DNA of 32,626 bases from the NCBI GenBank assembly GCA_017514235.1, contig JAFWKK010000015.1, positions 1 through 32,626 on the forward strand, given 5' to 3'. A model generated the notes under the pieces. It worked only from the letters and a program-made list of their open reading frames with translations, was not told the DNA's origin and made no database searches. This document shows, in pieces, positions 3,226 through 32,626 of the stretch (the stretch's first letter is position 1; every line of letters starts with the position of its first letter). Both the position numbers and the translations under genes were made by a program. Origin of the DNA: Kiritimatiellia bacterium (lineage in GTDB: Bacteria > Verrucomicrobiota > Kiritimatiellia > RFP12 > UBA1067).

Positions 3226-3230
3226 ATCGA

Positions 3231-3236
3231 TCACCT
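3231..3236 (-). promoter_or_regulatory. Ribosome binding site of the secretin gene
   Basis: AGGTGA on the minus strand, 5 nt before the ATG at 3225. It fixes the start that yields a clean signal peptide. Confidence 0.75.
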
Positions 3237-3266
3237 ATTCCTCTGTTATTTTGTGACAGTATACTA

Positions 3267-8910: not shown

Positions 8911-8917
8911 CGGTCTC

Positions 8918-9958: not shown

Positions 9959-9975
9959 TATCGTATCTTACTTAT

Positions 9976-10053
9976 AAGGACAAGGGAGGCCTGAAGGGCG
10001 TGAGAGACGAGCGGTCTCATGTCTCTCGTGCCTTCCGCGTCTCGAATGTCCTT
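9976..10053. repeat. Palindromic repeat, copy B, between ackA and pta
   Basis: GAAGGGCGTGAGAGACGAG (9993-10011) pairs imperfectly with CTCATGTCTCTCGTGCCTTC (10016-10035). Flanking AAGGAC (9976-9981) and GTCCTT (10048-10053) extend the dyad. The units match those of copies A and C. There is no U-tract typical of an intrinsic terminator on the minus strand, so it looks like a REP-like element rather than a terminator. Confidence 0.75.
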
Positions 10054-10059
10054 TTCCCT

Positions 10060-11277: not shown

Positions 11278-14200
11278 TCATTTCTCCATGACCTCGACTC
11301 TGAAGAATCCGCTCACGCCTTCCGGCACGGCGTTGCCGATGTCGATCGTGTCCTCGCCGGAACCCACGACGATATTCTGGCTCTTGACAGGCGTCCACTG
11401 CGGATTTACGAGCGACTGCGTCCAGTAAACCGTCGCAACTGCCGGTATGTCGCCCTTCAGGGCCTCGCTGTCGACAAGGGCGCTGGCCGCAGCCGAATGT
11501 TCGGCGGGCTTCGTCTCGGCCGACACGGTTATGCTGACCTTGCCGTCCACGAACTCCAGCGACGTGATGGAGACGCCGTCCTCGGCAAGCTTCGGGCTGA
11601 CCGCTCCGGAGATTGCCGCAGTGAAGGATTCGTCGTCCTGCGGTGAAGCGCCCATGGCGAGCGCAAGCGTACCGGCGTTGCTAAGGCTGCTGCGCAGGGT
11701 GGAGGACAGGCCGGCCGTCGGAATGCGTGCGTTCGCGCGCAGTTCAAGCGCCCCCGTGAGCCGCTTGTTGACGAGCATCTCGGCCGCCGGCGTCTCGCTA
11801 ATGAGCTCTATGCCCTTCTTGGACAGGTCGCCATACTTCGCATATTCCCAGGAATCCGGCAGGCCGTCTTCGTCGGTATCGGCATCCTCGATGTAGATGA
11901 CCGCAAGGTCGCCGTACCCGACATCCGGCCCAATTTTGATTGGCGTTGGATTGAGAATATTCTCCGTCGAGACGCTGCCGTCGCCTGCAAGGATATTGTT
12001 CAATGCTGAGCCATCGCGGACGCAGAGGTAGCCGGAGCTTTCCCAGTCATCGCAGACGCCGTCCTTGTCGGAGTCGATGAACGCGCGCAAGTAGTACGTG
12101 CCGTGTGCTTCGCCAGTGGTTGTCGCGCCCGGCGCGCTCAGCGGCAAGCCGATGATCGAGCAATTTGCCTGAGGCTTCGCCCCAACCGCATCAAGCGTGG
12201 CACTCTTGCCCTTCACGTAGCCTGCTGCGACCGGAATGCCCGTGAAGTCGGGCGACGTGAACGCCTGCACCCGCACCGCCCTAGCGTCGAAGCTCTCCTT
12301 GGGGCCGAAGTAGCGCACCGCAACATTGGCCGTGCCGTAGAGATAGCCGTTCGTCTGTACGTTCAGGTAGAACGTTGCAGGCTCGGTCGAGTAGGCGTTG
12401 CTGCGGAACTTGGCGTTGTACATCGAGACGCGCCAGCCGTAGGTCGACTTGTTTGCGAACACCTTGCCCGACGGCGTCATGTCGTCGGCATAGAGCGGCG
12501 CAGTCCAGCGGTAGACGCCGTTCTCGTCACGTACCGGCGCACGGCGGATGCCCGAGTCGTAGACCGTCTCGGTGCCGTTCGTCACGATGATGCGGAAAGC
12601 CGTGTACGTATCGCTGTCGATCTTCCACGTGAACGTCGGGTTTGCCGAGCTGACAATGCCCGCCGCCGAAGAGACCGGCGAGACGCTGACAGCCGCGACC
12701 GGCGTCGGCAGCACGCGGTTCTCGTCGAACTTGCGCTTGATTACCTTGGTTGAGGCGAAGACAAACGTATTCGTGTCATCGGCATTGAGCCAGGACACGG
12801 GACCGTCGCCAAGGACCACAAGGTATTCGGCTTCTGTGACCGGGTAGTAGGCGGCGACTCCGCTATTCGCAATTTCGCTGGAGAAGTATTCCCAGTCGAT
12901 GTCGTGCGTGTTCTCATCGAGGAAGTAGGCTTCTGTGAGAGTCGTCGTTTTGCGCGGATCCATCATGCGGTCGAACACGACGCGTGGCTCGAACGGATAG
13001 CGGTAGGACGGGAAGCCGTCGACCTTCCAGCGGACAACCCTGACACGCATCGGCTCAGAGGCGGAAATCGCATCGTTCTCGCCGGAGGCCGTGACGTTTG
13101 TCGTGCTGTAAAGCGCGGCACCAGTCGCCCATATGTCGAAGCGAGGCGTGATCGGCGATTCGTCGGTCAGCTCGATTTCGACAGTCGGCGTGCCAGCCCA
13201 AGAAATATCCACGTTTTGGACAACGCCATACGGATCTACTCCAGGGTCGTACTCACCATTGCCATCGACATCAAAAAACGCTTCGATGGTATTCGGTCCT
13301 TCCTTTAGACGTCCCGGGTATTGTTCGGGATCGCTGAAGTAGAAGGTCTGCGGCCACTCTTTCCCTATGCGGTAGAAACACTGAGCCCTCACGTATTTGC
13401 CATAGACGTCAGCACCTCTTTCCGCTAGTTTTCCGAGATCCATTTCATATTCGCCCGTAAGGAAGTTGATAGATCCAATCTCGATTCCTTCCGGAATCTT
13501 TAACCCGGAACAACCTTCGCTGACGATTTTACCAGTACGGCTGTCGGAGTCGCATCTCGACTTCGCAACCGTTTGCGCGGGTGGAGGGACCCTACCGTCT
13601 AGTACTACGCCCTTTGTGATCTGAACATCGTTTGTCTCCGCTTTGCCATGATCCTGTTTATGGACACTATACTCCTCGTAGGAAGTAGTCGATGCCGCTC
13701 GACCGCAATATGTACAATGCCAAGTGTAGAGAACTTCACCATTGATTGCGCCCATCTCGAATGTGACGCCATCGTCTGGTAGGATGTGTCCGGGATGCAG
13801 ATGCCCGTGAATGACTCTCGGTCCGTTATGCGTGATCCCAACCACCCGCGATACCTCCGGCTTATTGCCGCCCTCGTTCTCGCTCTCGTTGCCAACGGCA
13901 GTAAACTGTACATCGTGATATGCGGAGCCGGTTCTTCTTGCACGGACTATGAAGGTTTTGCCATTTACACGCCAGAAGCCGCCGTTGTAAATCGGCCTGA
14001 TTGCCAATGTCGGCATCGGATAGCTCCTAAAATTACTGTCCAAGCCGCTGTTAAGCCATGTGTCGATGATGTCGGCAAATCTGTAACCGAACCAATAGGC
14101 AGACCGGTTCTCGCTGCGGTTTGACCAGCCATCCTCATCGACATCAGCCGCAGCATCATAGGACAAGCGAGACGCATACGGCGTTACGCCATTGACAAGC

Positions 14201-17200
14201 GTGCCGTGTGCATCCTCCCAGACGTCATCAACAAGGTCATGGTCCGTGAAGATTTCGCCCACATACAGCGAGCCGACGCGGTAGAAGTAGTCGGGCGTAT
14301 ACTGGTCGACCGAGCATGGGTCAGTCGGGTCAAAAACATGCTCGTCGAATGCGAACACCTCGGAAAGCAGATATTCCACGTAGTTGGGCAAGCCGTCGTG
14401 ATCGTGGTCGTCAAGACCCGACTCGCCGCTGATGCCGTAGAAATTGGCCCACCAGTCGGGGATGCCGTTGTGGTCCTCGTCGGCAACCTGTTCGTACTTG
14501 GTAATGCCCGCCACGATTTCGCCGGACCCGTTCATGTAGGCGCCGCGCGCAAGGTCGCGCAAATACGCCTCGCCGGCGGTGATCATAAGGCCGTTCCAGT
14601 CGAGTATCGTCGCCCAGGTGATTTCCTCGGAAGGATCCATTCCGGCAGGGCGGTAATTCTCGTCGGCATACTGCTCCCACCAGTCGGGCAGGCCGTCTCC
14701 GTCGGCATCGCTGCCGGTAATCTCCCAGTTGGTCGAGGGGCCCTGCTCGTCCCACATGTCCACTCCGTCGTCGCAGTACTTGGCGAAAGCACCGCCGAGC
14801 GCGACAAGGTCATCACCGCTCTGGTTTAGATGACGGCCGGTGAAGCTGAAGAGATTAATGAAATGCTTATTTCCAGAAGACCCCGAATTCACATTGACAA
14901 ACCAATGGCGGGAACCAGTCGTACGGTATTGAAGCCTGTCCGCTACGTTGGCACGCGTCAGCTGAGTCCAGCGCGAGACCGGCTCGGCGTTGCGCGCAAA
15001 ACCATAGGTTCCGTCGGTGTAGCCCTTGTAGTTCGCGCTCCAGTACACGGAATCGAGCGTGGTGCCGTCGAAGCGCGGCAGATGGGTGACCGTGTTCGGT
15101 ATCCAGCAGATCCAGTCGGTGTCGGCGTAGACGGTGCCCGAGTAGCCGGGATTCGTACCGTCGCCTTCAAGGACCGTCTTCCACCACTGTATCTCGTAGC
15201 CTTCGGGCCGCGACATAAGTGCACGCGCTCCGCCAAAATTGTGCGGCGCGGTCGCGGCGGCATTCTCGTTGTCGGCGCCAAAGATCGAGTCGAACGACCA
15301 GTGGTAACGGAGCTCGGCCGGCACATAATCGTTCGCGGAAACTTTATCGTAACGGCGCTTGCCGTCCGCCCACGTCTCATAAAACGCCGAGCGGTTGTCC
15401 GCCGCCAGTTCGGCGGTCATTCGGGTCCTCATGGCATCCTTAATCTCCGCCCCCGTGCGTGCGCCGTCCCAGATGCGCACCTCGTCGACCCAGCCGGTGA
15501 AGAACTTGCTGTAACGGTCCCAGCCTAGGCCGCGCGTAAGGTCAAGGGCTCCGCCGTCAGGAGCGCCCTCGGCCTGCGTCTTGGCGGACGCGCCGACGAT
15601 GACCGCCGTCAGGTTGTATTCGATGTCGAACCAGTACTTCTGGAACGCAGTCACGGCCAGGGCTTCCGAGCCATAGCACGGAGGCAGGCCGGAGCTAACC
15701 CTGCGCTCGGCGACGCCGTTCACGTAGAACACGAGCGTCTCGCCATCGTATGTAGCCGCAAGGTGCGTCCACTCCTCGGCGGCAAGCGTCTTCGAGACTG
15801 CCTCTATCGGACCGCCCGACGCCGTACCGACCGGATCGAACTTGGTGTACCATTTGCCGTCCTTGATGGCGATCTGGAAGTTCTTGCGCATGTACTCGTC
15901 GTCGGCCGGGTTCTCGACGGACGACCAGACGGCGCGCTCGACGATCACTGCGTCGGCAAGCGACGTCGGCCGCACCCAGCACTCTACCGTATACTGGAGG
16001 AACGACGGATCGTCGGGGTAACCCGACAGCGTCGGATAGAACTCCGGTATCTCGGGCATGGTCTGCAGGGCGGAAGGACGCTCCGGGCCCTGGAAGTACA
16101 TCGCCTGGCGGCGGCGCGGCGAATCGGCGTACTGCGGATCGGACGCGCCGTTGAACTTGCCTTCCTTCTCCTCATAGTCGCCGATGCCGTCGTGGTCGGA
16201 ATCGAAGCCCTCGTTCTCCTCAAACGAGAACATCCAGCCGGGCTTGTCCTTTGCCAGCAGCTCCCAGGCGTCGGGCTTGAAGGCGGCGAAGCGCGCCGGC
16301 TTCAGGAGAGGAATCGGCGGAACCCAAGTGTCGAAGTCCTTGAACGAGTAGACCGTCTCGTCCTCGCCCTCGCCGTATGTGAACGTATCGCCGTCAAGCT
16401 CGACTTCGCCGAAGCGCGCCGGCAGGCGGAAGAAGCGGCGGACCAGCGAGTTTGTGTAGGTAGTGTCGGTCATCCAGAGCGGCGTCGGGTCGGTATGGAG
16501 CGCACCGACGTTCATTTCGGGCAGCATGGACTCTGTCTGGTTCGGTATGCTGTCGCCGTCTGGATCAGCGTCTGCAACGCCGTTCAGCCACGGGAAGACC
16601 TCGAAGTCGTAGCCGTTGCCGCGAGGCGTCTTCCACGGGTTCTTCTGCCAGTAGTTCATCTGGTCGCCGGTTCCCCACGCCTCCAGCGCATTGCGAGCGC
16701 TGCTGGTCGTCCAGGAGTCGTGAACGATGTCGAACGGACCTTCGTCGTCGGTCTGCGACCCGCCGGCCCTCACGCCGCTCTTGCCGAGGAGCGGGTTCAT
16801 GCCGTGGAAGAGCTCGTAGTAGTCGTCCATGCCGTCACGATCGGAGTCTGCGTCGAGCGGCGAGCAAGAGGCGTACTTCTGGGGTTCCTGCATCCAGCCT
16901 CCCTGCAGCAACAGATCCGTCGATATCATGAGAGGCGTCCAGATATCCTTGATAAGCGCGTCGCCGATGCGCTTGCGGAACCAGTAGTAGGCACCGCCGG
17001 CCTCGCCCAGGCCACTGTCAAGATAGGCGGCGTCCCAGACGTTCGTCAGGCGCGAGAAGTACTGCGATCCAGACGTGGAGTCAGTCACGAGACGCGGGTT
17101 GTAGTAGGGGCTCGCCTTGTCGACGAGCGTCGCGTACCAGAACTCGTCGCTAGTCATGCCGACGTCGGCATACTTCGGATCCCACTCCCACTTGTCGTCG

Positions 17201-20200
17201 GTCTCGTTGTAGGTCCAGTAGAACTCGGTCGGGATCGCCGTCCACGGCGAGAGCGGGTCATCGTAGCGCCAGCAGCGCATCGTGCCCGTCAGGTATTCCT
17301 GCCAGTTCTCGAGCCCGTCATGGTCGTAGTCGCGGTTGACAACCTGGGTGACTCCGTCGGCGATCGTAAACATGGTGACGTTGGTGGAAGTTTCACCCTT
17401 GAAATCAGCCTCTATGGGATAGCTAAAGGCGTCCTTGACCGTGCCGTCCATGCCGTCCACAAGGCCCTGCAGGTAGTTGCCTATCTCATTGCCGCTGGCG
17501 TCCTTGGCCTTGTTGCCACGCTCGGCAAGCAACGGGGCGAGCGAACCAGGGAACGGAGTCTTGCCCTTGAACTGCTTTTCCCACTCGTCGGGCAGGCCGT
17601 CGCAGTCGGTATCGACCGAGCACGGGTTAAGGCCGCCGCCTGGAATCGAACGGAGCTTGCCGTCGTCCGCCGGCGTGCCGTAGATGAAGTGCTTGCCTTC
17701 GTCGGAGTCGGAGAGCCCGTCGCCGTCGGTATCGACGCTCCACGGATCGGATGGGAAGAACTTGTTGAACCACTTCCAGTCGCCCGTGTGTGCGACCGTG
17801 GTGGTAACGTTCGAATACACCCCGGCATAGTGGTTCATTGCGTCGGTCGACTCGAACTCCTGATACTCGTTGAGCTTGTCGTCGTTCTCGGATCCGCCGA
17901 GGTATATCTGGTTGTTAGTATAGTTCGACTTCGCAGAGCCGACAAACGGCGAAAGATAGCTCTCGGCCATCATGGCGTTCGGGTTGAGCCCCGTCGCGAA
18001 GCCGGCGTACGGCGGCGCGAAGACGAAGGCTCCCTTGTCCCTCGGACCGGACATTACGTAGAGTTCCCAGCCGTCCGGCACGCCGTCGCCGTCGGTATCG
18101 GCGCCGTTGTCGCTGTTACGGCCGAAGTAGTATTCCGCCGCGGCGTCCGAGTCGCCGTTCACTCCCTGGTTGAGGGTGATGTTGCCAGGCTCGTTCGGCC
18201 CCTGCGGATTTGTAGTGAGCGCACCCCAGACCTTCGCAAGGTACGGAGCCTTGTCGGCCATCACATAGGTGTAGCCCGACATGTCGCAGCCGTTGTTGAG
18301 GAAGAACGAGTAGACGAGGAACTCGTCGTACGCCGCATATTCGCGGGTGCGGGCGGGATAGGTGCAGTAGCCGCCGCGCCTAACGATGTAGACACCCTCC
18401 ACGCCTTCGCCGTTGGCCGTTGAGCCCCAACGGTCGGCGAGCGGGCTCTTAGAACGCCACGCCGTGCGGGGATCGAAGCCGAACTGCTGGTATACGAGGT
18501 AGTGCAAAAGCGCTACGTCGCGTTCGTCGCTCGGTACGGCGCAGATCTCGGCGCCTGCCGGCACTGCAAGCCGACGGCCGAGCGCAAGGCAGCCGTAGTC
18601 GGCGGCCGTGGCGGCGACCTCCCCACGCGCCGTGTCGTTCGTGCCCTTGCCGTAGACCCAGGCGGCGTACGCATCGGTTGCGGCAATCTCTTCGGTCACC
18701 GCCAGCACCGACACCTCCACGTCCGCGCTGACGCTGTCCGCGACAACCGGCGTGCCGGCTTCCAGGCGGATCGGCCAGCCGCGCATTACGAACGTCGTCA
18801 CGTTCGTAATCGGGTTCTCCGGGTCGCTGTCGTCTATTTCCACCGTCGTCTCGGTCACGGAGGTGTATGTGCCGCTACGGTCCAGCGGCTTGGCAAGACG
18901 CCCGTCGTCCGTAAGCACCGGCGCCTCGGTCGCCGCACACTCCGTGCCGTCGGCGAGCGTGAACGTCCAGCAAGTCACGGTGTTTGTCTCAAAGGCGACC
19001 GCAGCCTTAGTGGCATACCACTGCACTCCGTCGGTGTCGCCGTCGTCGGCGATCACCGCGAACGTCGTGTACCGGACATGCTCGGGGTGCAGGTTGGCCG
19101 GAGTCTCCCAGGCAGCCTCGAGCTTGTACGAGGTCATGGCCATCGCGTCGCCGTCGTAGTTACGGGCCTGATCAAGAACCGCGTCGGCCGCACTCCTCTC
19201 CAGCAGCGGATTCAGCCCGGCTATCATCAGCTCCCAGCCGTCGGGCAGGCCGTCGCCGTCGGTATCGAAGTCGAACGGGTTCGTGCCGATCTCGAACTCG
19301 AGAAGGTCCGGCAGGCCGTCGTTATCGGTATCGCGCGTTTTCGCGCTTTCCTGATCCGTAGCCACAAGCGGATCCATAAGGCGCTCGATCACCTCGGAAG
19401 CGATGAGCACGCCGTCGCCCGGGTTCTTCGCATCGTACCTGCGGCCGGTAAGGCGCTTATGGACGACATTGTTGCCCTTGGCGTCCGTCTCAAGCCAGCC
19501 GACATGCGCCTTGTACCAGAAGTAGTACTCGTAGCCGTCGTCGAAGCCGTCCCTGTCGGTGTCGCAATAGATCGGGCTGGTCGGGCGCTCCGGCGACCAT
19601 TCCGCCCAAGCATCTGGATTCTTCCAGTCCAGACCGTGGGCGGCGGCATACTCCGTCCAGGCGTACCACTCCGTCTTGCTGATCGTGCAGTTGGTCGTCC
19701 ACTGCCACTCGCCGTCGACCTCCTCGGCGTAGACACGGTCGGACTCGATGTCGAAGCCGAGCTGTGCGAGGGCGTCATTGAGGCCGTCATGGTAGCCGCG
19801 GATCTCAAGCCTCGCGCCGAAATCACTGCTCCACGTGCCTGCAAGGCCCGGAATGAGCGAACCGTAGACCGCCAGGTCGCTGGAAGGCAGGAAATCGGGC
19901 GATTCGGCGCCGTCCTTGTCAAGATCCCCGTTGAATCCACGAAGGTCCGTAAGGTCGCCTTCCGTCGCCCCGCCGCCGCCGGACTCGATGAGAGAGTGCG
20001 TCGTCAAGTCGAAAATGCCCATTCCGTAGCGGTAGACGGCCGCATCAGGGATGCCGTCAAGGTTGATGTCGCCGCAGTTGTCCGCCTTCAGGAACTCGCG
20101 CGAGAAGACACCCTCCCAGTACTGCACCGGAATGGCCGAACTTGCCGTTTGGCCGCCCTGCGACTGGCCCTGCTGGTCATATTCGGGCAACGGAATGATC

Positions 20201-23200
20201 ACCGTGCCGCTCTCGCCTATGTTGAATATGAGCGATGCGGTGGTCATGGAGTCGCCGCCGGTCGTGGACGTATTTTCCGTGTTGTTGCAGGCCCAGACGT
20301 AAAGGAAGCTGTCAAAGCCAAGCTTGCCCCACTTGTGCTGAGTCGTGTAGTTGTAGTACTCGCTGATCGCCGAGCCGCTCGACCAGTTGCCGTTCTTGTC
20401 GATGCCCCTGTCCCTGGAGGGGTCGGGCCCCAGGCTGCCGTCATCGTCGTTTCCGTCGGCCTTGTAGCCGTAGCCGTAGGCGAGGGCCGAAGCCGCATTG
20501 ATGCGGAACGAGTACGAATGGTCGAAGCCCTGCACCTTCTGCGGACCGGTGGCGCCTGCGAAGACGCGACCTGCGCCAAGGCCAGCGGCAAGGCCATAGT
20601 GCTGGGAATAGCCGCCGGACGTGCCGACCGATCCTGCCGGGCCGTGTGCGCGCAGCTGCAGGTTCTTGGACGGACTCACATAGTAGTTGACCGAACGGCG
20701 CGACGAATCGCCGTCCTTGTCGGTGAAGGTGAACTCCACGGTGTGCGCGCCCTCGCCTTCGAACTCGGCCGAATACATGTGGGAGGTGGAGTCGTAGAGC
20801 TTTTCGCTATGGACGGGCGCGCCGTCGATCGATATTTCGACGGTGACTCCCGCCGCGAGATCCGCCGTCACGTCGGTGCAGGCGTAACGTATGTCATACG
20901 GCGTGTTCGCGCTGGCGTTCATGTTGGTGTAGGCCTCTTCCGCCTCCGTCGGGCGGAGTATCTCCGGCGCGATGTTCTGCACCCGCACTGACGTAGGCTC
21001 CGCCTTGGTGTAGAAGTCGCACCACTTCACGCCGTCGTCGTTCACCGTCTCGGTCGTCACCTCCGCGCTCAGGTAGAGGCCGGCCATGGTGTCGTCGGTG
21101 CCGTCCATGTCAATTACGTCGAGCACCTTGGTCGTAACAGTGCTGGGGAACGTGAGATCGTAGACGCCGGTGCTCACCTCGTCCACGGAGCCGGGGAACG
21201 TGCTGAGCTTGAGATAGCCGCCGTCGGCCGCCTGGGAGACGGTGAAGCGAACCGTGATCTCGGCGTTCGCCGATTCGGAAAGCTTCACCGTGATCTTCGC
21301 GCTGTTCTTCTTCGCGTCGTTCTCGTTGAAGATTCCGCCCTCGGCGCTGGTAGAGATGGACACGCCCGGCTTCTCCGACACCGGCACGTAGAACATGAAG
21401 ATGGTCTCATAGTCCAGCATGTCCTTGTCCTTCGCGGATATGATCACCTGCGCCGCCTGCTTCGAGTTCGCGAACGTGTGCTGCACGGACTGCGTCGAGG
21501 GGTTGCCAGAGGTGTAGTACGTCTGGCCGTCGATCTCCCACTTGATGGACATAGCCTTGTCGCCGGTCGCGTTAAGGTCGGCCGCGACGTCCTTGACGTC
21601 GACGGAGAACGTCTTTGCGACGCCGCGCGACACCGGATCTATCCTCTGCCCGTACTTTTCCGAAGTGAGATACTGCCCGGCCGCCGTGCACGACTTGAAC
21701 TGCGGCGGCACGTTGGTGATCGTGAAGCTGAGCGTACCTTCAACGTAGCTCGGAACCTTCGTGGTCGGGTCGTTGGCGGTGCAGAGGAACGCCTTGAGCG
21801 TTACGTCCCTGTCGCCATCGAGGAAGTGGATCTGGCGCGGCGCGTCGGCTTCACTCTGTCCCTGCGAAATCTGGGCGCCGGCGGTCATCGCCGCGCTCGT
21901 AACGCACAACAGGTCGGCGGGATCGTCCGCACCGATGAAAATGTAGCCTTTGCCCTTGTAGGGCTGCGAAAGGCCGAGGTTGACCCAGGTCGACCCCTCG
22001 TTTTCGGCGAAGACGAGCTTCGTCGTATCCGTGAGCGCGATCGTGGTCTTCTTCGCGTCGCTGACGACAAGGTTGTACTTGACCTTCGCGGAAACCCTTC
22101 CGTCGGGACTCACCACGCAGAGCGTAAGCTCCTTGCCTGCGGTGATGTTCCAGAACTTCGCGCTGCCCACGAAAAGGCCGTCGTCGTCCATCGTGATGTT
22201 CGTGTCGTCGTCGACGTCCTCGCCGTCGCACGCCCACTTGAACGTGTAGCCGACCAGGCTGCCGAGGTCGGCATAGCCGGTCGCCGGCTCGTTGAGGTCG
22301 CGGTACGAGTCCGCAATCTCAAGGGTGAACGTCTGCGACTTGCCGGATTCGACGCTGATCGTGCTGGGCGACTCCTCGGTGGAGAACGCCGGGTCGCTGG
22401 CTACGATCGTCGGGGTGGAACGGTTCACCTTCAGCGTGCAGGAACCCTTGGTGGTGACGTTGTCCGGTCCGGAAATCTTCTCGGTCGAGAAGGTGATGCC
22501 CTTCGTGCCGGTCCTTGACGTTCCGCCGAGAACATAGATGTTCTTGTACACGACGGACCTGTTCGCGGGAATCTCCACCTCGAACGTCTTCTGGTCGAGC
22601 GGGTCGCCGCCGTAGTCCTGGTCGGCGATGCGGATTATGTTCGCGTCGTAGATGGCGTTCAGCGAGGTAAGCGTGTCGTCGCCGCTGACGCTGGCGTCGA
22701 GCCTGACGGTCACCGGGTAGTCGCATGCGGGCACCATCTTTATCACGAGCTGCTTCTTGGCCGTCACGTAGTCGGCGTCGGCCGTGACGGAGTCGGTGGC
22801 CAAGTCGCCGCCGAGAACGATCGAGACCGTCGGCTCCGGGGCGGTGATCACCTGGACCGTGCGCGACACCGTCACGTCCAGCAGTTCGCCGGTCGGCTTG
22901 TAGACTGCGGTCTGCTCCGGGCTCAGGTAGACGGTGGCGGTCGCGCCGACAGCGGCGCCGTCGGCGCCTTTCATCGCGAAAGTCACGCTCTCGGCGCCCA
23001 CCGGCACCTGCACCTTCAGCACCTTCTTGCCGTCGACGGTCGAAATCGTGTTGGCGCCGCTGGCGACAGGCACCATCACGGTCTCGTCGGAGGACCAGAT
23101 GTAGACCGACATCGCCTCCGCGATCGGGCCGCCGCCGATGAGAAGCGTCGGCGTCGTGCCCGGAGCTGCGCTCATGCCGGGATAGATGTCGCGCCACACG

Positions 23201-24033: not shown

Positions 24034-24040
24034 TGTATTG

Positions 24041-24046
24041 CTCCTC
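24041..24046 (-). promoter_or_regulatory. Ribosome binding site of the giant TSP3/LamG gene
   Basis: Minus-strand GAGGAG, 7 nt before the ATG at 24033. It overlaps the stop codon of the lipoprotein gene (TGAGGAG), so ribosomes finishing that gene sit on this site. It decides the start in favour of 24033. Confidence 0.85.
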
Positions 24047-24518
24047 ATTTGGAAACCGGTGCTTTCTTTTGCTGTTTCGGGGCGATGCGATCGCGTACGA
24101 TTCCCAGGCGCTCCCGAGAGTGCGCCTCGACCTTCGCGTTCGCGTTAGTACACTGGCTGTAAAGGTCGTTCCACGCCGGATCCTTCTCCAGCGCCGCCTG
24201 CACGGCCTTGAGGTCGTCGGTCTTGAGCTCGGCCTTCTTCGCCTCGATCATCGCCTTCATCCGCTCCGCGATGGCGTTGCGGTCGCGGACGAGCGCGACA
24301 TGCGCCTTGCGCTCCGCCGCAAGGCGGCCGCGGAACTTCTCGTCGTTCATGTAGCTTTCGGGCGAAGACGGGTCGGGCGGCGGTGGCTCCTTCTTCTTCG
24401 GGCAGCCGCAGCAGAAGAAGGCGCAAAGGAGAGCGCAAGGCACGGACGCCCGCGTCCAACGCGCCGCCCGTGTCATCTCGCCCTTCTCAGCCATGCATGC
24501 CATTGCAATCTTTTCCAT
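24045..24518 (-). CDS. Small Cys-rich probable lipoprotein with helical domain
   Basis: 157 residues. A positively charged start is followed by a hydrophobic, Cys-rich core (VPCALLCAFFCCGC, 26-39) and then PKKKEPPPPDPSSPES, a typical flexible linker after a lipidated Cys. Lipidation at C37 or C39 is likely, although the lipobox (FFCC or CCGC) is non-canonical. Residues about 57-145 are charged and predicted helical (for example RDRNAIAERMKAMIEAKKAE), perhaps a short coiled coil. Its ATG overlaps the stop of the upstream giant gene (TGATG at 24516-24520) with GAGGA 9 nt before it, supporting the 24518 start. The internal ATG at 24476 (MTRAARW, preceded by AAGGGCGAG) would give a more normal signal length and is the alternative. 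It is sandwiched between two giant exoproteins, so it may anchor or chaperone one of them at the envelope; this is inference. Confidence 0.75.
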   Translation of the reverse strand: MEKIAMACMAEKGEMTRAARWTRASVPCALLCAFFCCGCPKKKEPPPPDPSSPESYMNDEKFRGRLAAERKAHVALVRDRNAIAERMKAMIEAKKAELKTDDLKAVQAALEKDPAWNDLYSQCTNANAKVEAHSRERLGIVRDRIAPKQQKKAPVSK

Positions 24519-27500
24519 CAGTCGTCATCCTCGAACGGAGGCCCGTCATACGTCGAATCGGCCTTGAGCAGGTTGATCTGCGCCCAGGTCTCCAGCGAAT
24601 CGTCCAACGTGAACTGGTACAAGATCGAATTGCACGGATTCTTGTACCAGCCGTATGAATAGCCGGCCGACGACCGCGAGAACGGATCGAGTATCTCGAT
24701 CTTCGCCTCGAAGTCGTCCGAGAAGCTGCCAGGCCCGAACGTGAACCAGCGGAACGGCAGGAAGCCGGCGTTGTGGGGGAGGCCGTTGTTCAGCATGAGC
24801 TGCACCTTGAAAGTCTCGCTTGTCCAGTTTCCGGTGTAGAGGTCGGACTGCTCGTTGCCGAGGCCCTGCAGCCGCATCGGCCTGGAGATGACGCGGGAGA
24901 CGTCGTTCGACAGGTACATCTTCACCGTCACCTGGCGGTTCGTCAGGTGCTCGGTGTAACCGTCGTTCCACTTGCGCTTGCGCCGGATCTCCTCTCCCTG
25001 TATGCCCGTGAACCCGTGGCGAAGCCACCAGCCGGGCTCGGTGGGGTCGAGATCCAGCCAGTACATCATCTTCAGCGGCATCTCGTAGACGGGATCGGCT
25101 TCGTCCAGCCCCTTGTGGTGGCCGAGCGATATCGGGCCCTCGGGATTCGCAAGCTCCCCGTCGGCATGGCGCCTGCCGAGCCAGTTCAGGACCGCCGGCG
25201 TATAGGCGTCGGCAGGGTCGAGCCCGGCGTCAAGCAGCATCGGGTCGATGCCCTCGGACACGACCACGACGGTCGTCTCGGTGATGTTGTTGAGGTTAAG
25301 CGTGTACGAGCCGGTCACGCCTGTCACCGCATCGTTCGTCACCCCGTTCACCGTCAGCGCGCCTATCGAGTACCACGGATCGATCGTGTAGGTGACGTTC
25401 GTGGATTCGCCGGAGTTGACGATCACGAACGTGTCCTGCGCGGTGTCGTCGCCTATCGCCTGCACGACATGCCTGCCCAGCGACTGCGCATAGACCCAGA
25501 TGCTCGCGCCGTACGGCTTGAGATACCAGCCAGTGAGCTCCTCCTGCCCTTCGTTGAGGCGGCCCGGGGTGAACCTCATCTCGGACGACCAGCCGCCGTC
25601 CTCCCCGTGCGCTTCGCCCGCGACGCCAAACGACGACCACGTGACGCCGTTCTCCTTGCGCGCACGGTCCTCGCCGGCGTAGAAGCGCCTGGCGTAGGAG
25701 CGCCCTGCCGCCGCGTCCAGGTCGTTCAGCTCCTTCACGAGGTTCGTGCCGTCGTACGTGTAGCCGAACATCTCGTAGTAGGGAGGCTGGCACCACTCGT
25801 TCGTGCCGGCGACAACAAACTGGTGCTCCAGGATTCCGCTCGGGCGGAAGAGCTCGAACTGGTACGGCTCGTCGTACTGGAGCTGGCCGGCCTTGAACGT
25901 TGTCGGCAGCGTGTCCGCGACCCATGTGCCGTCCGCCACCGGTGCGCCGGTCATGTAATCCTTTATTCCGCCCGCGTCGCGCGTATCGGGACTCTGGAGC
26001 ACGAGGAAGTCGTAGTCGCCGCTGCGTTTCCCGTCAGTCGACTTCTTGGACGCCGGAACGCCGTTCTTGCCCAGCTCGGCCAGCGTCAGCGACCTGTGGT
26101 TCATGTCGGTCAGGACGACCTTCCATCCCTTGAGGTCCACGCCCCATGGCACGGCCAGCTCGACAAACTGGTTCGTCACGCACTTGACGTTGCCTGTAAG
26201 GCCCTTCGGACCGTCGCAGTAGTTGACCTCGTTTATCCAGACGCGGCCGGGCGAAACGGCGTCGAGTATCGTGTAGGGCGAGAAGTACTCCAGCTCGCCG
26301 TTGCCGTGGAACTGGTCCTTGTTGTAGTCCACCGGCTCGTACCACAGCGGATTCGTCCATCCGTCGCCTTCCGCCTCGTCAGTTCCAGGCTCGATCTCCT
26401 GCGGCTGCGGCTCGTCGACGCCGGCGAGGTAATAGTCCACGCGGAGCGTGTACTGCACGACAGTGTTGGCGGTCGACTGAGAAGGCACGATCGTCTTCTT
26501 GTCGGCGACAGTGGAGCGGAAGACGTAGTCGCCCGGCTCGCCGACCTGCTGCAGCTCCGCCCATTCGCTCGCTCCGCTTTCGTTCTCCCACCTCGAGCAG
26601 CCCCAGGGCGAATCCCCGACGAAATAGCGGAAGTACACGCGGAAGCCCTTGTTGGTGTCGATCTCGGAGTCGTACCTGTCGAACTTCAGCTTCGCCTGAA
26701 CGCCCCACGACTCGTCGATCAGCGGCTGCTGGTCCTTGTCGAGTATGTTGGTGATCAGCTTGTCGACGGCAAGGCCGGTGCGGAACGGCCGCGCGTACTC
26801 GAAGCCGACTGCCGCCTTGGCGCGTTCGGATACGACCACCTCGTCGAGCAGCACCCTCTGCACCCCGGCCACCGGCGGTGTGTTGGTGACCCCGTCCACG
26901 ACCAGCCGTATGGCGGCGAAGTCGTCGAGCGAAGACGCCCTGTACTCGAACGTGCGGTACACGAAGGAGTCGACGGTGAAGTTCGTGAGCGCCGTCCCCC
27001 AGTTCTCGCTGGCCCCGTCCTTCACGCCATAGAGCGACAGCTTGCCGACGGCGTGCGAGGCGGTGTTGGTCTCGTAAAGGCGCGCCCTTAGGCGCACGAG
27101 CCCGATCGTCGCCTTCCGTTGCTTGCCCTCCGAAGTCGTGTACGTGCCGAACGTCGGCGACTGGATCGTCGGGTTGATCTTGTCGTATTCCGACGGGTCG
27201 CCGTTGATGTCGGCGGTAGTGGAGTTGTTGAGCCCGGCCGACATGCCGTAAGCCGTCTCCGACTCGGTCTTGACCACCATCGAGTCAGGCAGGTACATGC
27301 GGCGCTCGGTATCGGCGTCGTCGCCGAGCGTGCGCAGGTTCCATCCGAGCCAGCTCGTCTCGTCTATGGGAGGCTCGTCGTGCACCAGCACGTCGGTGAT
27401 CGTGATCGAGCCCCATTCGGGATCCGTCTTGGCCCTTGCCTGAGCCGCCTCGACGACTGACGGGGCGATGACGATGCGGAACATGCCCTCGAGCGGGTCG

Positions 27501-30500
27501 TTCTCGTGCGCGTGCCAGCCGCAGTAGTACGTCTGCGCCTTCGCGGACGCGAGCTCCTCGTAAGAATATCTCCTGAGCGTGATCCACGAGCCCACGGTTT
27601 CGGCCTCGCCGAGCTCCACGGAATTGGTGGAGAAGTTGTAGTTGTTCACCGAACCGGACATGTTTGCAGCGACATCGTTTGTTGCAGCCTGCACCCACAC
27701 CTCGCACCCGGGCCGCACGTCCTTGTACGAGAAGCCGATCATGCCGAGGCCGTTAAGGAGCAGCGAGCGTATCGACAAAGCCTTCGATGCGACCGCTCGC
27801 GCCGGCTGAAGCATGGTGACATGGTTGGTCACCGCCCCCTGAACCTCCTCGATCACCCGCGCCTGCGTGTAGGCGAAGGTGCGCGCGCTGCTGGCGATGC
27901 TGCGTATGTCTTCGCCGTTCCACGCGGTCTGCTTGATATCCCATACCGTAACGTCCACGGGGGCTTCGCCTGCCTTCAGCATCACGTGGCAGTCCATGTT
28001 GGTGCGCACCGCAATCGAATGCTGCGTGAAGGCGTAGCTGGACACGTTGACCCGGTCGAGCAGCTCCCACGACGAGGATCCGCTTCTCGACTTCAGGTAC
28101 ACGTCGACCGTCTGGTCGAGGTTGGCCGGCGCGCGTATGCCGAGCGCGCGCGGAAGCATCTCGTAGTTGTACTCCGACGTCGACTCCTCGAACATCTCGG
28201 TGCGGCCGGGCGTGTAGGCCCATGCGTTCACCAGACGGGTGCGGCACGGGTAGTAGGGGGCCGAGTTGTCGTAGTTGCCGACAAGCGTAACCCGCCTCGC
28301 CGCGTAGAAGTCCTTGTACGCCGCGCCTTCCGCTATGGCCGACTTGGTGAGCCGGCTCGAATACTGCCTGGGCTGGAGGAACACGCCGTTGCAGTTCGCC
28401 GGCAGTACGCCGTAGCCGCCCTTCGTTAGCGGATTTTCCGTGTCCTGATAGCAGACGAGATTGTAGTTCACGCCCGAATACGAGGCGCTCGGCAACGCCG
28501 AGGCGGTCGTCAGGCCGCCGATTATGACGGTGTTGCCGCTGTCCACGCCTACCGACAGCACCATCGCGTAAAGGGTCGGCTTCTTCACGCCCTCGTCGTG
28601 CGAGAACTTCGCGTCCTTGAAGAAGTGCGTCGTGAGCAGCTCGCTGGAGATCTTGTACTTCTTCACCGACCACTTGTAGAGGGATATCTGGATTCCGTCG
28701 GAGAAGTTGCGCTCGGCCCTGAGCTCGTAGCAGCCCACCTTCGGCAGGTAGTAGGAGACGATGCTCATCGAGGCCCCCGGCGCGTAGTCCTTCGCCTTCT
28801 CGGCGCTGGACAGGAGCGCAGGCACGACGATCGTGTACTCGTTGGTCGACGACGAGCCGTCGCCGTACCAGACGGAGAAATCGTCGAAGGAGATGGACTG
28901 CCCGAGACGCGCCTTGAAGGAGAGCGTGTCTAGGCCCGACGGCCCTTCGCTCTGCGTGTATGCGATGTCGCCGGACTCCTCACCCTGCATCTGCCAGGCT
29001 ATGCCGGAGTTCTCCATCTGCTGCACCAGGTTCGACGTCGTCAGACTCGCGTCGACGAACATGCCGTTTGCGCCGTTCCACGGCCCGGGCATCTTGTGCG
29101 TGCCGAAGAGCACGCCCTTGGGATAGCCGGGGTCAAGGTAGTTCGGGAGATGGAACGGCTCGTTCCATTCGCCCTTTTCCGTCACAAGCGGGCTCCAGGA
29201 GAGCATGTCTGCGTTGGTCTGGACCATCGTAGCCGTCGTCACGCCGCTCTTCTCGGCGAACGTGCCGACGAATTTTTCCGTGCCCGCGACGTTCGCGTCG
29301 TGCCAGGCGTTGAAGTTCTGGTATGACGCATGGCCTATGGAAAAGGTGTCGCTCGCGTCATTGTATGTGAACTCGAGGTAGGTCGACGCGCCGTCAGCCT
29401 CGTACTTGTGCATTTCCCCGGACTTCTTGGCCTCTCCGCGCCACGGGAACTTATCCACGTCCGCAGTCGGGAACAGCGTGTCCTGGTTCATCGCAAAGGT
29501 CGTTGCGCCGGCATCCTGCCGGTTCTCCCTCCGGAAGAGGAACGACACCGCACCGCTGACGGTGTTGGACGGAACCTTCACCAGGCCCCGCCACGAATGG
29601 TCGGACACTAGCTCCATCTCCTGGTTGGCGCTGTATGCGCTAGGCACGCCGGCAAGCACTACGCGAACCGTCTCGTAGTCGCTCTCTCCCTCGCGCAGGC
29701 GCACGAACCAGTCGGAGCCTTCGCTAGGCAGCTTGTAGCCGTTCGTGTCCATGCGGTTTGTGACGGTCGTAGTCTCCTCGGTATAGAGGCCGCCGAGCTT
29801 GAAGCCGGACCCCGAATAGTCGTAGTAGTCGTAGAACGGCATCATCGTCTTCAGCTCGTACCAGAACTCCACGTCGCCCGGCTCGGCCGGTATGTCCAGC
29901 GGCTCGGACGCCCTGAACCCGTCGAACGGGCTTAGCGCGACGTTCTTCCAGAGACTGCCGCCCGCCGGATCGAACACCTGCCCGAGATAGCGCCAGCGGT
30001 AATGGAATATCGCGCGCTGCACGAAAGTCTCCGCGCTGACGTCCGTAGCCGGGCTCACGTACGCATCAAGCCGCCCGCGGGCAAGAAGGTTGTTCGCGCT
30101 CGTGACGGACGGGAACGGCACGTTCGCCATCGCCCCCTCCTGCCCGAGCACCAGCTTGCCGCCGCGCGACCTGTCGTATTTGCCGTACGGGGCCATCGAC
30201 GCCTTGCACGCCGGATAGGACACGATGATGTTGTCGAGCAGGATAAGGCCGCCGGCCTGGTCTTCGCCGAAGTAGTCGTATCTGCCGGTGCGGCGGATCC
30301 TGAAGCGCACCGGCCCGGTGAAGTCCAGCGGCACGCATACGCGGTAGAAGTTCGCATTGGACTGGCCGGTCTTTATCCCGAGCGAAAGCTCGTTGGTCTT
30401 CGCCTGCGCCTCGAAACTGCCGCCGTCCCGCTTAAGCGGCAGCATCGCGCACGGCGTCCACGCCGTAATATTGCCCAAACCACCGCCGCCGTCCATGGCG

Positions 30501-32626
30501 TTCTCGTCGGTCGGGGGAAGGCCGCTTACGGTGTTCGTCGCGATCTCGACCACGATCTGGTAGTTGGTGGCGGTGCTACCGTCGCCTGAGACGGTATAGG
30601 AGTTCAGCGCGTCGAAGTAGATCGTCCCGATGCCGTTCGTGTAGCACGGCGAATAGACGGTCGCGTCCACAAGGTTGCGCAGTATGAGGTTCCCCGACTC
30701 CGTCTCGTAGCCCTGCAGGTTCCTGTTCGCGTACGAAGAGTTGCCGAGCGAGGTCGACGAGCAAGGCAGCACGGCTTGGTAGACTGGCAGCGCCGTGGCG
30801 TTGGGACGGCCGTTTCCGACAATCACGTCGTCCAGACGCCAAAGCACGTTGGTGGAACCGTCCTCCCCGATGAAGTTGAGGCGATGCCTGCCGCCGGCAA
30901 GGAAGTTGAGGGCGTCCGGATTCCTGACCGGTTTTTCGGTGTCTTCATGCGTCCAGTAAAGGTTGTAGAGGTTTGTGACGCCGCGCGAGGTCTCGACCTC
31001 GCGCGTCCGCCAGTAGGCTTGGCCGACGACCGCATGGCCGTCCGCCGCGTCGTCGTTCGCGAGCATCACGCGCCCGTTCAGCGTGAGAGCGTCGGCGCCG
31101 CCAAGCCCGCCGGAAAGGTCGTCGAACGGCAGCGTGCCGTAGATGCTGAAGTCCAGGTTGCGGACGACCGGCTCGTATTCTCCGTCCGGCGCGTCCGGCT
31201 TGAAGACGATGCGGTAGGTGCCGGGAGCCGTCGGCAAGACCGCCGGATCCGTAGACAGCACCGTCTCGGAAGCGTCGATCACCGCAACCGCGACATCGCC
31301 CTCGGCCAGTTCCGCCAGCACGGTGACATGGCCGGGCGTCTCGCCCACCGCCCAGTTCTGCTTGTCCATGGCAGGCTCACGGGTGAAGTAGTTGACCCAG
31401 ACACCGTCCTTGTTGACCAGCCCGAACTCCGACGGCGGCTGCCCGGCGGCTGCGGCGTCCTCCTCCGTCCAGTCCGACCAGATTGTCTCGGGATAGTGTT
31501 CCGGGGCGGCCTGGCCCGGGCGGAGATGCCAGTACATGCGCAGCTTCTGCGGTTCCGAGCCGACGAGCGGCAGCTTCACGTAAACCGTCGACTCTCCCTT
31601 CATGTCCCACAACTTGACATAGAAGGGGAGAACGTTGCCGTCGTCGTCGGTGAACGCCAGGTCGTCGCCCATAAGCCCCGCACGCTCGTAAAGGAATCCC
31701 ACCAGCGACCCGACCGGATTCGCCCCGATGTCAGTCCTCCTCTCGTCAAGCGTGACCTTGTAGGGGAAGTTTGTCAGCTCGGCGGGGTCGCCTGCAGTCC
31801 GGGAATCTACGACTATCTCAACGTAATCCGTGAAAATCGCGCCAAGACCCTTCACTATCTTGAACGCCACCTTCTGCGCCTCATAGAGGTAGTTGCGCTC
31901 GTCAGGCGCACGTACGCGCAAGTAATGCACACCCGCAACCGTTGGCTTCTCGAAGAACCATTCAGTCGCGTCCTCGGAATCGGCGTATTCGTATACGGGT
32001 GTCACCCACGACGGGGAAACGGTGCACTTCGGGTTCGGCGTCTTCTCCTCAGGCGTGCCGTAGAGCCAGTCGCGGATACGCAGGTCGGAGAACGTCACGG
32101 TCACCGGCGAAATCGTGAAAGCTGCTTTCAGGTTACGCGGCGTGGCTTTGTAGTTCCTCTCGTCCTCAGTCCTCACGCGCAGCCAGTAGCTGCCGGCTTC
32201 GGTGGGCCGCGTAACCGACCATTCTGTCGCGTCCTCGGACTCGGCGTACTCGTAGACGAGCGAAACGGTCGAGGGCGAGAACACGCAGACCGGGTCCGGC
32301 GCAGTGTCGTTGTAGGTCCACCCCTCCTGCGTCAGGGACGAAAGCGTGACGGCCACAGGCTCGATCCTCATGGTGACCGTGGCAACGCCGACAGACCCGT
32401 CAAGCCACGTGCAGCCAGACTTCAGCGTCGCCGTGGCCGTGTAGTCGCCGGCATCCGTGCCGACGTTGTCGCCCGTAACGTCGAAGAAGGCCGTCGACAC
32501 CATTGAGGTGTGAGCGTTGCCGTCGTAGGTGACGGGGGCCGGATCCGTCGGCTTCTCGAGTGAGCCGTTCATCGACATCGAGATGCGAACGTAGACAATG
32601 CCGTCGCCGCCCTTGCCGCCGGGTGC
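24518..32626 (-). CDS. Giant exported multidomain protein, N-terminus outside window (2702 residues visible)
   Basis: The frame is open to the right edge: before the first ATG it continues as APGGKGGDGIVYVRIS, a Gly-rich stretch that seems to be the tail of an upstream module. Then come an Ig/MBG-like repeat (PVTYDGNAHTS...GDYTATATLKSG, about 30-90) and two clearly related copies at about 95-258 (see repeat entry). A DUF2341-like region follows at about 259-410 (FTDYVEIVVDS, LTNFPYKVTLDE, VYVKLPLVG). The middle has several lectin/CBM-like beta-sandwich stretches I cannot name. A lamin-tail-like domain lies at about 2118-2280 (RVWINEVNY, NQFVELAVPWGVDLKGWKVV, YQFELFRPSG). The C-terminal 400 residues end in EDDD with no anchor. 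Only the C-terminal part is seen, so total length, signal peptide and promoter are unknown. The stop overlaps the lipoprotein ATG, indicating a common operon. Probable surface or secreted protein; no catalytic motif recognised. Confidence 0.85.
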   Translation of the reverse strand, partial: APGGKGGDGIVYVRISMSMNGSLEKPTDPAPVTYDGNAHTSMVSTAFFDVTGDNVGTDAGDYTATATLKSGCTWLDGSVGVATVTMRIEPVAVTLSSLTQEGWTYNDTAPDPVCVFSPSTVSLVYEYAESEDATEWSVTRPTEAGSYWLRVRTEDERNYKATPRNLKAAFTISPVTVTFSDLRIRDWLYGTPEEKTPNPKCTVSPSWVTPVYEYADSEDATEWFFEKPTVAGVHYLRVRAPDERNYLYEAQKVAFKIVKGLGAIFTDYVEIVVDSRTAGDPAELTNFPYKVTLDERRTDIGANPVGSLVGFLYERAGLMGDDLAFTDDDGNVLPFYVKLWDMKGESTVYVKLPLVGSEPQKLRMYWHLRPGQAAPEHYPETIWSDWTEEDAAAAGQPPSEFGLVNKDGVWVNYFTREPAMDKQNWAVGETPGHVTVLAELAEGDVAVAVIDASETVLSTDPAVLPTAPGTYRIVFKPDAPDGEYEPVVRNLDFSIYGTLPFDDLSGGLGGADALTLNGRVMLANDDAADGHAVVGQAYWRTREVETSRGVTNLYNLYWTHEDTEKPVRNPDALNFLAGGRHRLNFIGEDGSTNVLWRLDDVIVGNGRPNATALPVYQAVLPCSSTSLGNSSYANRNLQGYETESGNLILRNLVDATVYSPCYTNGIGTIYFDALNSYTVSGDGSTATNYQIVVEIATNTVSGLPPTDENAMDGGGGLGNITAWTPCAMLPLKRDGGSFEAQAKTNELSLGIKTGQSNANFYRVCVPLDFTGPVRFRIRRTGRYDYFGEDQAGGLILLDNIIVSYPACKASMAPYGKYDRSRGGKLVLGQEGAMANVPFPSVTSANNLLARGRLDAYVSPATDVSAETFVQRAIFHYRWRYLGQVFDPAGGSLWKNVALSPFDGFRASEPLDIPAEPGDVEFWYELKTMMPFYDYYDYSGSGFKLGGLYTEETTTVTNRMDTNGYKLPSEGSDWFVRLREGESDYETVRVVLAGVPSAYSANQEMELVSDHSWRGLVKVPSNTVSGAVSFLFRRENRQDAGATTFAMNQDTLFPTADVDKFPWRGEAKKSGEMHKYEADGASTYLEFTYNDASDTFSIGHASYQNFNAWHDANVAGTEKFVGTFAEKSGVTTATMVQTNADMLSWSPLVTEKGEWNEPFHLPNYLDPGYPKGVLFGTHKMPGPWNGANGMFVDASLTTSNLVQQMENSGIAWQMQGEESGDIAYTQSEGPSGLDTLSFKARLGQSISFDDFSVWYGDGSSSTNEYTIVVPALLSSAEKAKDYAPGASMSIVSYYLPKVGCYELRAERNFSDGIQISLYKWSVKKYKISSELLTTHFFKDAKFSHDEGVKKPTLYAMVLSVGVDSGNTVIIGGLTTASALPSASYSGVNYNLVCYQDTENPLTKGGYGVLPANCNGVFLQPRQYSSRLTKSAIAEGAAYKDFYAARRVTLVGNYDNSAPYYPCRTRLVNAWAYTPGRTEMFEESTSEYNYEMLPRALGIRAPANLDQTVDVYLKSRSGSSSWELLDRVNVSSYAFTQHSIAVRTNMDCHVMLKAGEAPVDVTVWDIKQTAWNGEDIRSIASSARTFAYTQARVIEEVQGAVTNHVTMLQPARAVASKALSIRSLLLNGLGMIGFSYKDVRPGCEVWVQAATNDVAANMSGSVNNYNFSTNSVELGEAETVGSWITLRRYSYEELASAKAQTYYCGWHAHENDPLEGMFRIVIAPSVVEAAQARAKTDPEWGSITITDVLVHDEPPIDETSWLGWNLRTLGDDADTERRMYLPDSMVVKTESETAYGMSAGLNNSTTADINGDPSEYDKINPTIQSPTFGTYTTSEGKQRKATIGLVRLRARLYETNTASHAVGKLSLYGVKDGASENWGTALTNFTVDSFVYRTFEYRASSLDDFAAIRLVVDGVTNTPPVAGVQRVLLDEVVVSERAKAAVGFEYARPFRTGLAVDKLITNILDKDQQPLIDESWGVQAKLKFDRYDSEIDTNKGFRVYFRYFVGDSPWGCSRWENESGASEWAELQQVGEPGDYVFRSTVADKKTIVPSQSTANTVVQYTLRVDYYLAGVDEPQPQEIEPGTDEAEGDGWTNPLWYEPVDYNKDQFHGNGELEYFSPYTILDAVSPGRVWINEVNYCDGPKGLTGNVKCVTNQFVELAVPWGVDLKGWKVVLTDMNHRSLTLAELGKNGVPASKKSTDGKRSGDYDFLVLQSPDTRDAGGIKDYMTGAPVADGTWVADTLPTTFKAGQLQYDEPYQFELFRPSGILEHQFVVAGTNEWCQPPYYEMFGYTYDGTNLVKELNDLDAAAGRSYARRFYAGEDRARKENGVTWSSFGVAGEAHGEDGGWSSEMRFTPGRLNEGQEELTGWYLKPYGASIWVYAQSLGRHVVQAIGDDTAQDTFVIVNSGESTNVTYTIDPWYSIGALTVNGVTNDAVTGVTGSYTLNLNNITETTVVVVSEGIDPMLLDAGLDPADAYTPAVLNWLGRRHADGELANPEGPISLGHHKGLDEADPVYEMPLKMMYWLDLDPTEPGWWLRHGFTGIQGEEIRRKRKWNDGYTEHLTNRQVTVKMYLSNDVSRVISRPMRLQGLGNEQSDLYTGNWTSETFKVQLMLNNGLPHNAGFLPFRWFTFGPGSFSDDFEAKIEILDPFSRSSAGYSYGWYKNPCNSILYQFTLDDSLETWAQINLLKADSTYDGPPFEDDD
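24528..24532 (-). promoter_or_regulatory. Ribosome binding site of the lipoprotein gene
   Basis: Minus-strand GAGGA 9 nt before the ATG at 24518, inside the last codons of the upstream giant gene. Together with the TGATG stop/start overlap it favours this start. Confidence 0.6.
31850..32350 (-). repeat. Two tandem Ig/MBG-like repeats in the 5' part of the second giant gene
   Basis: Each unit is about 80 codons and carries the same skeleton: a VT-rich strand, W-[TL]-Y, P-[DN]-P-x-C, SP-S, VYEYA[ED]SEDATEW, [RE]KP-T-[EV]AG-x-[YH], LRVR-x-[DE]DERNY. VYEYAESEDATEW and VYEYADSEDATEW differ at one position. The copies look like a recent internal duplication; a more distant related unit precedes them at about 32350-32580. 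Confidence 0.85.

Follow-up and report, generated by a model that had tools for sequence, protein, structure and literature searches.

The conserved module in the DNA described here is a pair of genes, one for a small helical-hairpin protein and one for B, a giant exported protein, and the hairpin gene stays with B. Gene A, coding for a second giant, is independently conserved and stands before the pair only in this genus, as a recruit. A single stoichiometric complex of giant, lipoprotein anchor and giant, as put forward in the original prediction, was not supported. Giant surface proteins of PVC bacteria and the Amuc cluster of Akkermansia are each already known, and their combination with a hairpin partner appears to be new as far as the literature searched goes.

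Gene organization of the contig

The window, that is the whole stretch of DNA analysed, is an entire contig (G000:C3) of 32,626 bases, both ends of which are contig ends, and belongs to a MAG of 3.96 Mb with a completeness of 92%. Three minus-strand open reading frames were found where the original prediction had placed them. Gene B (11278..24048) codes for a giant exported protein, which has 4256 aa if read from the first ATG or 4251 aa if translation starts at the ATG at 24033, the small helical-hairpin gene (24045..24518) for a protein of 157 aa with the lipobox-like motif FFCCGC, and gene A (24518..32626) for a giant exported protein of at least 2702 aa, its frame being open at the contig end. 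The predicted lengths of 4251 residues for B and at least 2702 for A were borne out, as was the coupling of the three genes. The stop of A and the start of the small gene overlap as TGATG, and TGAGGAG precedes the ATG at 24033, so that the Shine-Dalgarno sequence of B starts inside the stop codon of the small gene. Domain scans of A and B gave no enzyme domain above threshold, in agreement with the view of both as giants lacking one.

Two parts of the earlier description needed revision. The small protein had been called a Cys-rich lipoprotein, which is true of the signal/lipobox stretch only; the rest has one further Cys after the lipobox Cys. The three genes had been taken as an operon and are indeed overlapping, co-directional and conserved, but they are not the natural unit, and the run extends past 11278 with eight more genes on the same strand as B. 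It comprises eleven genes, the intergenic gaps across all of them ranging from -4 to 101 nt, and the pilus-like cluster downstream had gone unrecognised. The three genes are more than chance open reading frames, since the orthologues of A and B align over long stretches.

The hairpin gene accompanies B

By a mechanical rule, a hairpin-like gene was found directly upstream of 26 of the 35 testable B ORFs, of 3/20 A ORFs and of 0/12 other ORFs of at least 1000 aa, with 5 B, 13 A and 3 other ORFs untestable. The rule, set after the loci had been inspected, asks for a gene of 80-500 aa on the same strand whose end falls between -260 and +130 nt relative to the start of B and which has a hydrophobic N-terminus and a charged helical composition. 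Several of the B failures have such a gene all the same: in G014, G024 and G053 it is present by hairpin profile hits and the mechanical start lies too far upstream, while in G040 (a gap of 145 nt) and G047 (composition) a small upstream gene misses the rule. The failure in G029 is N-masked, and the failing ORFs of G023 and G027 (in the latter the second) are each a fragment of a B that is split. In G006 the hairpin gene precedes A rather than B, A and B being adjacent, and G021 and G022 have one small gene before A plus one before B. The hairpin-before-B arrangement was also seen at many named MAG loci, including those of the lake MAGs L144, L152 and L153.

By pairwise search the small protein was detected in 15/59 genomes, all in the window's genus (the sets of 59 genomes include the window's own). 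It is rich in Ala, Glu, Lys and Arg and often too diverged for sequence search. AlphaFold2, run with 32 sequences, predicted an antiparallel hairpin over residues 60-145, with helices at 60-98, 103-111 and 114-145 and a pLDDT of 95-98 over residues 61-140. The PDB matches listed for the hairpin were generic coiled coils only, and the protein gave no Skp/OmpH Pfam match.

The small-protein alignment held 31 sequences from 79 named loci, picked by completeness and profile hit. Among 36 small-protein N-termini judged by a crude rule, 23 were lipobox-like, two of them doubtful (G016, G053), and 13 were not, three of these (G014, G029, G046) being artefacts of start, mask or contig edge. The hairpin orthologues of G003, G005, G007 and G019 have a TM stretch and no lipobox. 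In family f4 the small proteins have a signal-peptide-like N-terminus without Cys, but the hairpin profile did not match these f4 upstream proteins, which are alike only in place and in composition and character. The lipobox Cys is consequently not conserved family-wide, since several orthologues lack it, as do the f4 forms, and the TM-type and f4 N-termini imply that lipidation is not the conserved property of the hairpin protein. The earlier label of envelope anchor is weak for a protein that is lipoprotein-like, TM-anchored or Cys-less and signal-peptide-like according to lineage. Such varied anchoring suggests a periplasmic escort rather than a surface anchor; because its anchoring varies, the hairpin probably works in the periplasm.

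Gene B is a conserved giant

The N-terminus of B is signal-peptide-like, as judged by eye. A first cluster of Asp-rich TSP3-type repeats occupies residues 1496-1610 (19219..19563, minus strand; PF18884 E 4e-11 for the whole protein), with the best PF18884 stretch at residues 1595-1609, and the TSP3 part of the B alignments has invariant Asp columns. A LamG domain follows at residues 2685-2785 (15694..15996, minus strand; PF13385 E 4.7e-16). Among the B family members scanned, TSP3 was found in 8/8 and LamG in 7/8. With LamG and TSP3 in one exported-type protein, B has the domain content of a TSP3/LamG surface adhesin. Structural comparison of a predicted model of B residues 1120-2270 yielded no informative match.

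The B orthologues are collinear in BLAST alignments over ~4000 aa at 25-41% identity, which marks B as a conserved giant rather than an array of shuffled repeats. The B of G004, the closest relative, is 78% identical as far as a masked stretch. One of the B alignments used 8/15 B frames and another 30 B frames from the 79 named loci, the latter picked by completeness and profile hit; the comparison of segment 1120-2270 used 29/30 of these loci.

B frames closed at both ends range from 2852 aa (G043) to 11,455 aa (G033). Frames of 7,854-11,457 aa were seen in G033:C4 5423-39790 (L032, L033), G012:C3, G030:C5 and G002:C4, and the extra length in G033 includes partial copies of the C-terminal third, window residues ~3110-4070 matching again at several places. 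The C-terminus of B is a GFFRVEV tail. An FF/FY-(R/K) tail is present in 14 of 20 B ORFs of at least 2500 aa with a closed 3' end; of the 20, one terminates in N and another in a shifted frame. The f4 B proteins of G038, G047 and G054 (L051, L047, L050) have the tail G(T/S/V)L(V/I)R-ED-G-(S/T)-W-(T)-(F/L) in its place.

B is split into two ORFs in G027 (G027:C5 93001-102521, L077; 4-nt overlap) and in G023 (G023:C73, L080), and A is split likewise in G021 (G021:C7 4929-13241, L076); the split giants may reflect natural fission or assembly error. In the B tree, G027, which is assigned to the window's genus, clusters with G237 of genus g14.

The B core profile matched 50/59 genomes at E 0.001, some of these being weak TSP3-only matches. 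At E 1e-10, 109 of the 289 genomes sampled from the class had a B-like giant, which corresponds to 44 of 113 genera, and many of the more distant matches among the 109 covered B in part only. Most of the named loci came from rumen or gut MAGs that carry the label Kiritimatiellae, Lentisphaerae or Verrucomicrobia; the remainder were a few termite, lake, sediment and groundwater loci and a small number of weak matches in other phyla.

Gene A is separable from the pair

A DUF2341-like stretch was detected in A at open-frame residues 320-365 (31532..31669, minus strand; E 2.7e-4), its 21.8 bits falling just short of the cut-off of 23.4. Within the A family, of which 7 frames entered the alignment, DUF2341 was found in 5/7 members (E up to 0.5, best 6e-14), a glycine-rich domain in 4/7 and LamG in 1/7. 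The A orthologues align by BLAST over ~2100 aa at ~28-35% identity, that of G004 being 88% identical to the window's A, and A ORFs having a start in related genomes are ~2300-3700 aa long. The A core profile matched 43/59 genomes, strongly within the genus and weakly beyond, and with a longer A profile, proteins from families f4, f5 and f6 aligned over positions ~840-2676.

The original prediction would fail if orthologues of its three genes occurred apart in related genomes, and this was observed: in G012, G013 and G033, A and B are on different contigs, with no A in the fetched flank of B. G012 also encodes, ~7.6 kb upstream of its hairpin gene, a Gly-rich protein whose match to A is confined to the N-terminal part. 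Of the 28 genomes of the window's genus having both A and B, 21 carry them on one contig. In G002 and G007, A is truncated by a contig end next to the hairpin gene, and B is cut in G023 and G026, so that the linkage is ambiguous in these last two. Among 32 B genomes of the genus, A was not found in four (G016, G025, G030, G035), which are MAGs 72-89% complete. In the 30 B-positive genomes from other genera of the family, A was present in 27 and lay off the B-core contig in 27/27. The assemblies are fragmented, so a different contig is not always proof of distance between A and B; at the A loci of f4-f6 that were inspected, no hairpin- or B-like gene was found beside A. A giant-lipoprotein-giant complex of fixed stoichiometry is thus not supported, A being separable from B and on one contig with it in only 21/28 genomes in the genus and in 0/27 in other genera of the family.

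The place before the hairpin is taken by other genes in genera g14 and g19. A secreted C10-family peptidase is encoded there in three of six loci (G283, G240, G298), and in G237 a repeat protein stands before the hairpin, next to a C10-family peptidase; G130 and G270 have neither. Secreted C10-family peptidases are thus found 1-2 genes upstream of the hairpin in 4/6 g14/g19 loci (L161, L165, L167, L172).

The downstream run ends in Amuc_1102-1098 homologues

Three genes on the minus strand separate B from the pilus-like cluster: ackA, acetate kinase (10060..11196; PF00871 E 6.2e-128), pta, phosphate acetyltransferase (8918..9958; PF01515 E 1.1e-99), and a SIS + CBS protein (7825..8910; PF01380, PF00571), which from this domain pair we take to be kdsD-like. 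The three (7825-11196) keep their place between the giant and the pilus-like genes in three genera.

The cluster itself, also on the minus strand, begins with an Amuc_1102-related protein (7082..7789; NF042424 E 6.8e-7, 29.1 bits, cut-off 55) and an Amuc_1101-like PilM (5476..7077; NF045709 E 2.2e-121, 406.6 bits, cut-off 650; PF11104), the latter scoring 172.9 bits with TIGR01175 pilM (cut-off 133). These are followed by an Amuc_1100-like protein (4409..5479; NF038287 E 2.4e-12, 46.9 bits, cut-off 180), an Amuc_1099-family protein with a TSP3 repeat (3267..4412; NF042425 E 9.1e-20, 71.5 bits, cut-off 50; PF18884) and an Amuc_1098-like secretin cut by the contig end (1..3234; NF042912 E 9.7e-93, 311.6 bits, cut-off 750; PF00263 E 9.8e-8), of which the longer copy in G004 reaches 427 bits against the same cut-off of 750. 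The five homologues stand together and co-directionally in the order 1102-1101-1100-1099-1098. Only Amuc_1099 exceeds the NCBI curated equivalog cut-off; the other four are below theirs, and the cluster is therefore a homologous one and not a set of certified equivalogs. The genome as a whole also has matches to T2SSE/PilB-type ATPases (six) and to secretins (six, spread over five contigs), together with a single prepilin peptidase.

Within the window's genus, the run was found in the same order, to contig or fetch limits, in G004, G016, G031, G032 and G034. The order hairpin-B-ackA-pta-kdsD-1102-1101 was present in all six g14/g19 loci (G283, G130, G240, G237, G270, G298) and continues to 1100, 1099 and 1098 as contigs and ORF picking allow: in G283 a longer opposite-strand ORF kept 1100 from being picked, the G130 contig ends past 1101, and the secretins of G240, G237 and G270 are N-terminal pieces at a contig end, named by eye. 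The B segments 1120-2270 of g14/g19 members (L099, L120) are ~35% identical to that of the window. B is on one contig with the Amuc_1102-like gene in 22/30 genomes of the window's genus (g1), 9/11 of g14 and 1/2 of g19. In the other genera of the family, the comparison covered the 30 genomes that are positive for B. Outside these three genera they are on different contigs in 28/28 genomes with B at E 1e-10 or better (15 from other genera of the family and 13 from other families of the order, the f3 Amuc_1102-like matches among them being weak), from which it follows that B need not be encoded with the Amuc cluster.

Discussion

Our tentative reading, which we hold with slightly less than even confidence, is that both B and A are giants of the adhesion or matrix type, that the hairpin protein is the periplasmic escort of B, and that B is made with, and perhaps displayed via, an Amuc_1098-type secretin complex. 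B would be Sec-exported, as its signal-peptide-like N-terminus suggests, and would form a chain of Ig/PKD-like beta domains in which the Asp-rich TSP3 repeats would be stiffened by Ca2+ and the lectin-like LamG domain may serve in binding. The hairpin protein would be made right before B and stay in the periplasm, where according to lineage it would be held by a lipid or a TM helix or be soluble; its most likely task is to hold the unfolded giant or to guide it during export. As judged from the gene order, the hairpin-B pair heads a co-directional run ending in the full Amuc_1102-1098 set in the window's genus, g14 and g19, and giant and pilus-like secretin complex are likeliest co-produced and acting together at the cell surface. 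B may be exported through or to the secretin complex, and attachment to feed particles, mucus or other cells would be a plausible role.

The working link between B and the secretin complex is one that we infer from gene order, in three genera only. Neighbourhood alone does not establish a physical link between B and the pilus genes, and ackA, pta and kdsD intervene. The more specific proposal, in which the Amuc_1098-1102-type machine is, in these bacteria at least, the apparatus that both exports and displays a giant non-pilin adhesin, B, handed over by a dedicated periplasmic hairpin escort, appears quite improbable. If the secretin does export B, this would be a secretion-and-adhesion system of its own kind and would tell what the Akkermansia-type complex does.

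Gene order may also be kept by hitch-hiking in an operon, the hairpin and B forming a free-standing surface module with no functional tie to ackA-pta-kdsD and the pilus-like genes. The metabolic genes in between and the separate contigs of B and the Amuc_1102-like gene in all 28 genomes outside g1, g14 and g19 speak for this; the order is, however, kept in three genera with small gaps, despite an identity of only ~35% in B segment 1120-2270, and we consider hitch-hiking somewhat unlikely. A role of the small protein as an outer-membrane lipoprotein holding B, and here also A, on the surface in a fixed ratio would suit its tight adjacency to B and its lipobox-like N-terminus here and in most same-genus relatives. 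The TM orthologues without lipobox in four genomes and the cleaved, soluble-looking f4 forms would not serve as outer-membrane surface anchors, and A is separable, which together make such an anchor unlikely. That B and A are instead matrix or S-layer-like coat proteins, and not adhesins, we regard as very improbable. One strong locus each of A and B in most same-genus genomes, the conserved and collinear sequences and the lack of an enzyme domain above threshold would fit a coat, but the length of B varies widely among relatives and its LamG and TSP3 content points elsewhere, such content being commoner in adhesion or glycan binding.

In Akkermansia muciniphila, the Amuc_1098-1102 cluster is, according to the available portions of the reports, proposed to make pili-like structures (PMC4960237, PMC5332112). 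Homologues of all five are present in the window in one co-directional run, and differ in being preceded by the hairpin-giant pair and ackA-pta-kdsD; the available portions of PMC5332112 and PMC4960237 mention no such giant. The Akkermansia members are abundant outer-membrane, immune-active proteins.

Lentisphaerae are among the bacterial phyla rich in proteins of more than 5000 aa, and giant PVC-type proteins are described, in the portions available, as very long, often exported and carrying adhesion-type or carbohydrate-binding domains (PMC11573180, PMC12057145). The giants of the window are likewise very long and of exported type; the difference is that the giant here is orthologous and collinear across many families of the class, where a small partner gene goes with it, and that within part of one family it belongs to a fixed operon that includes pilus-like genes. 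PVC bacteria often encode giant surface proteins, which are mostly orphan, and here one of them has a partner gene across many families. The combination of a giant, an Amuc cluster and a hairpin partner was not found in the literature searched, as far as the portions available of it go. The arrangement may point to an undescribed route by which a giant adhesion protein is made and displayed. For uncultured bacteria of the rumen and gut, it offers a testable connection of a giant protein with a possible escort and with a secretin complex.

Skp is a small periplasmic helical chaperone, general rather than a gene-specific partner. The hairpin protein resembles Skp-type chaperones in a small helical architecture that would be able to hold an exported chain, and differs in its lack of a Skp/OmpH Pfam match and in apparently being a gene-specific partner of B. 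Likeness to CglD and MtsD, bacterial TSP3-repeat surface proteins whose names come from NCBIfam hits, is limited to the TSP3-type repeats in common, the scores being far below the cut-offs (NF033765 on B 31.8/400 bits; NF047639 on the Amuc_1099-like protein 38.9/800 bits). The Amuc_1099-like protein (3267-4412) has, besides its TSP3 repeat, a CxxC...CxxC zinc-ribbon-like stretch.
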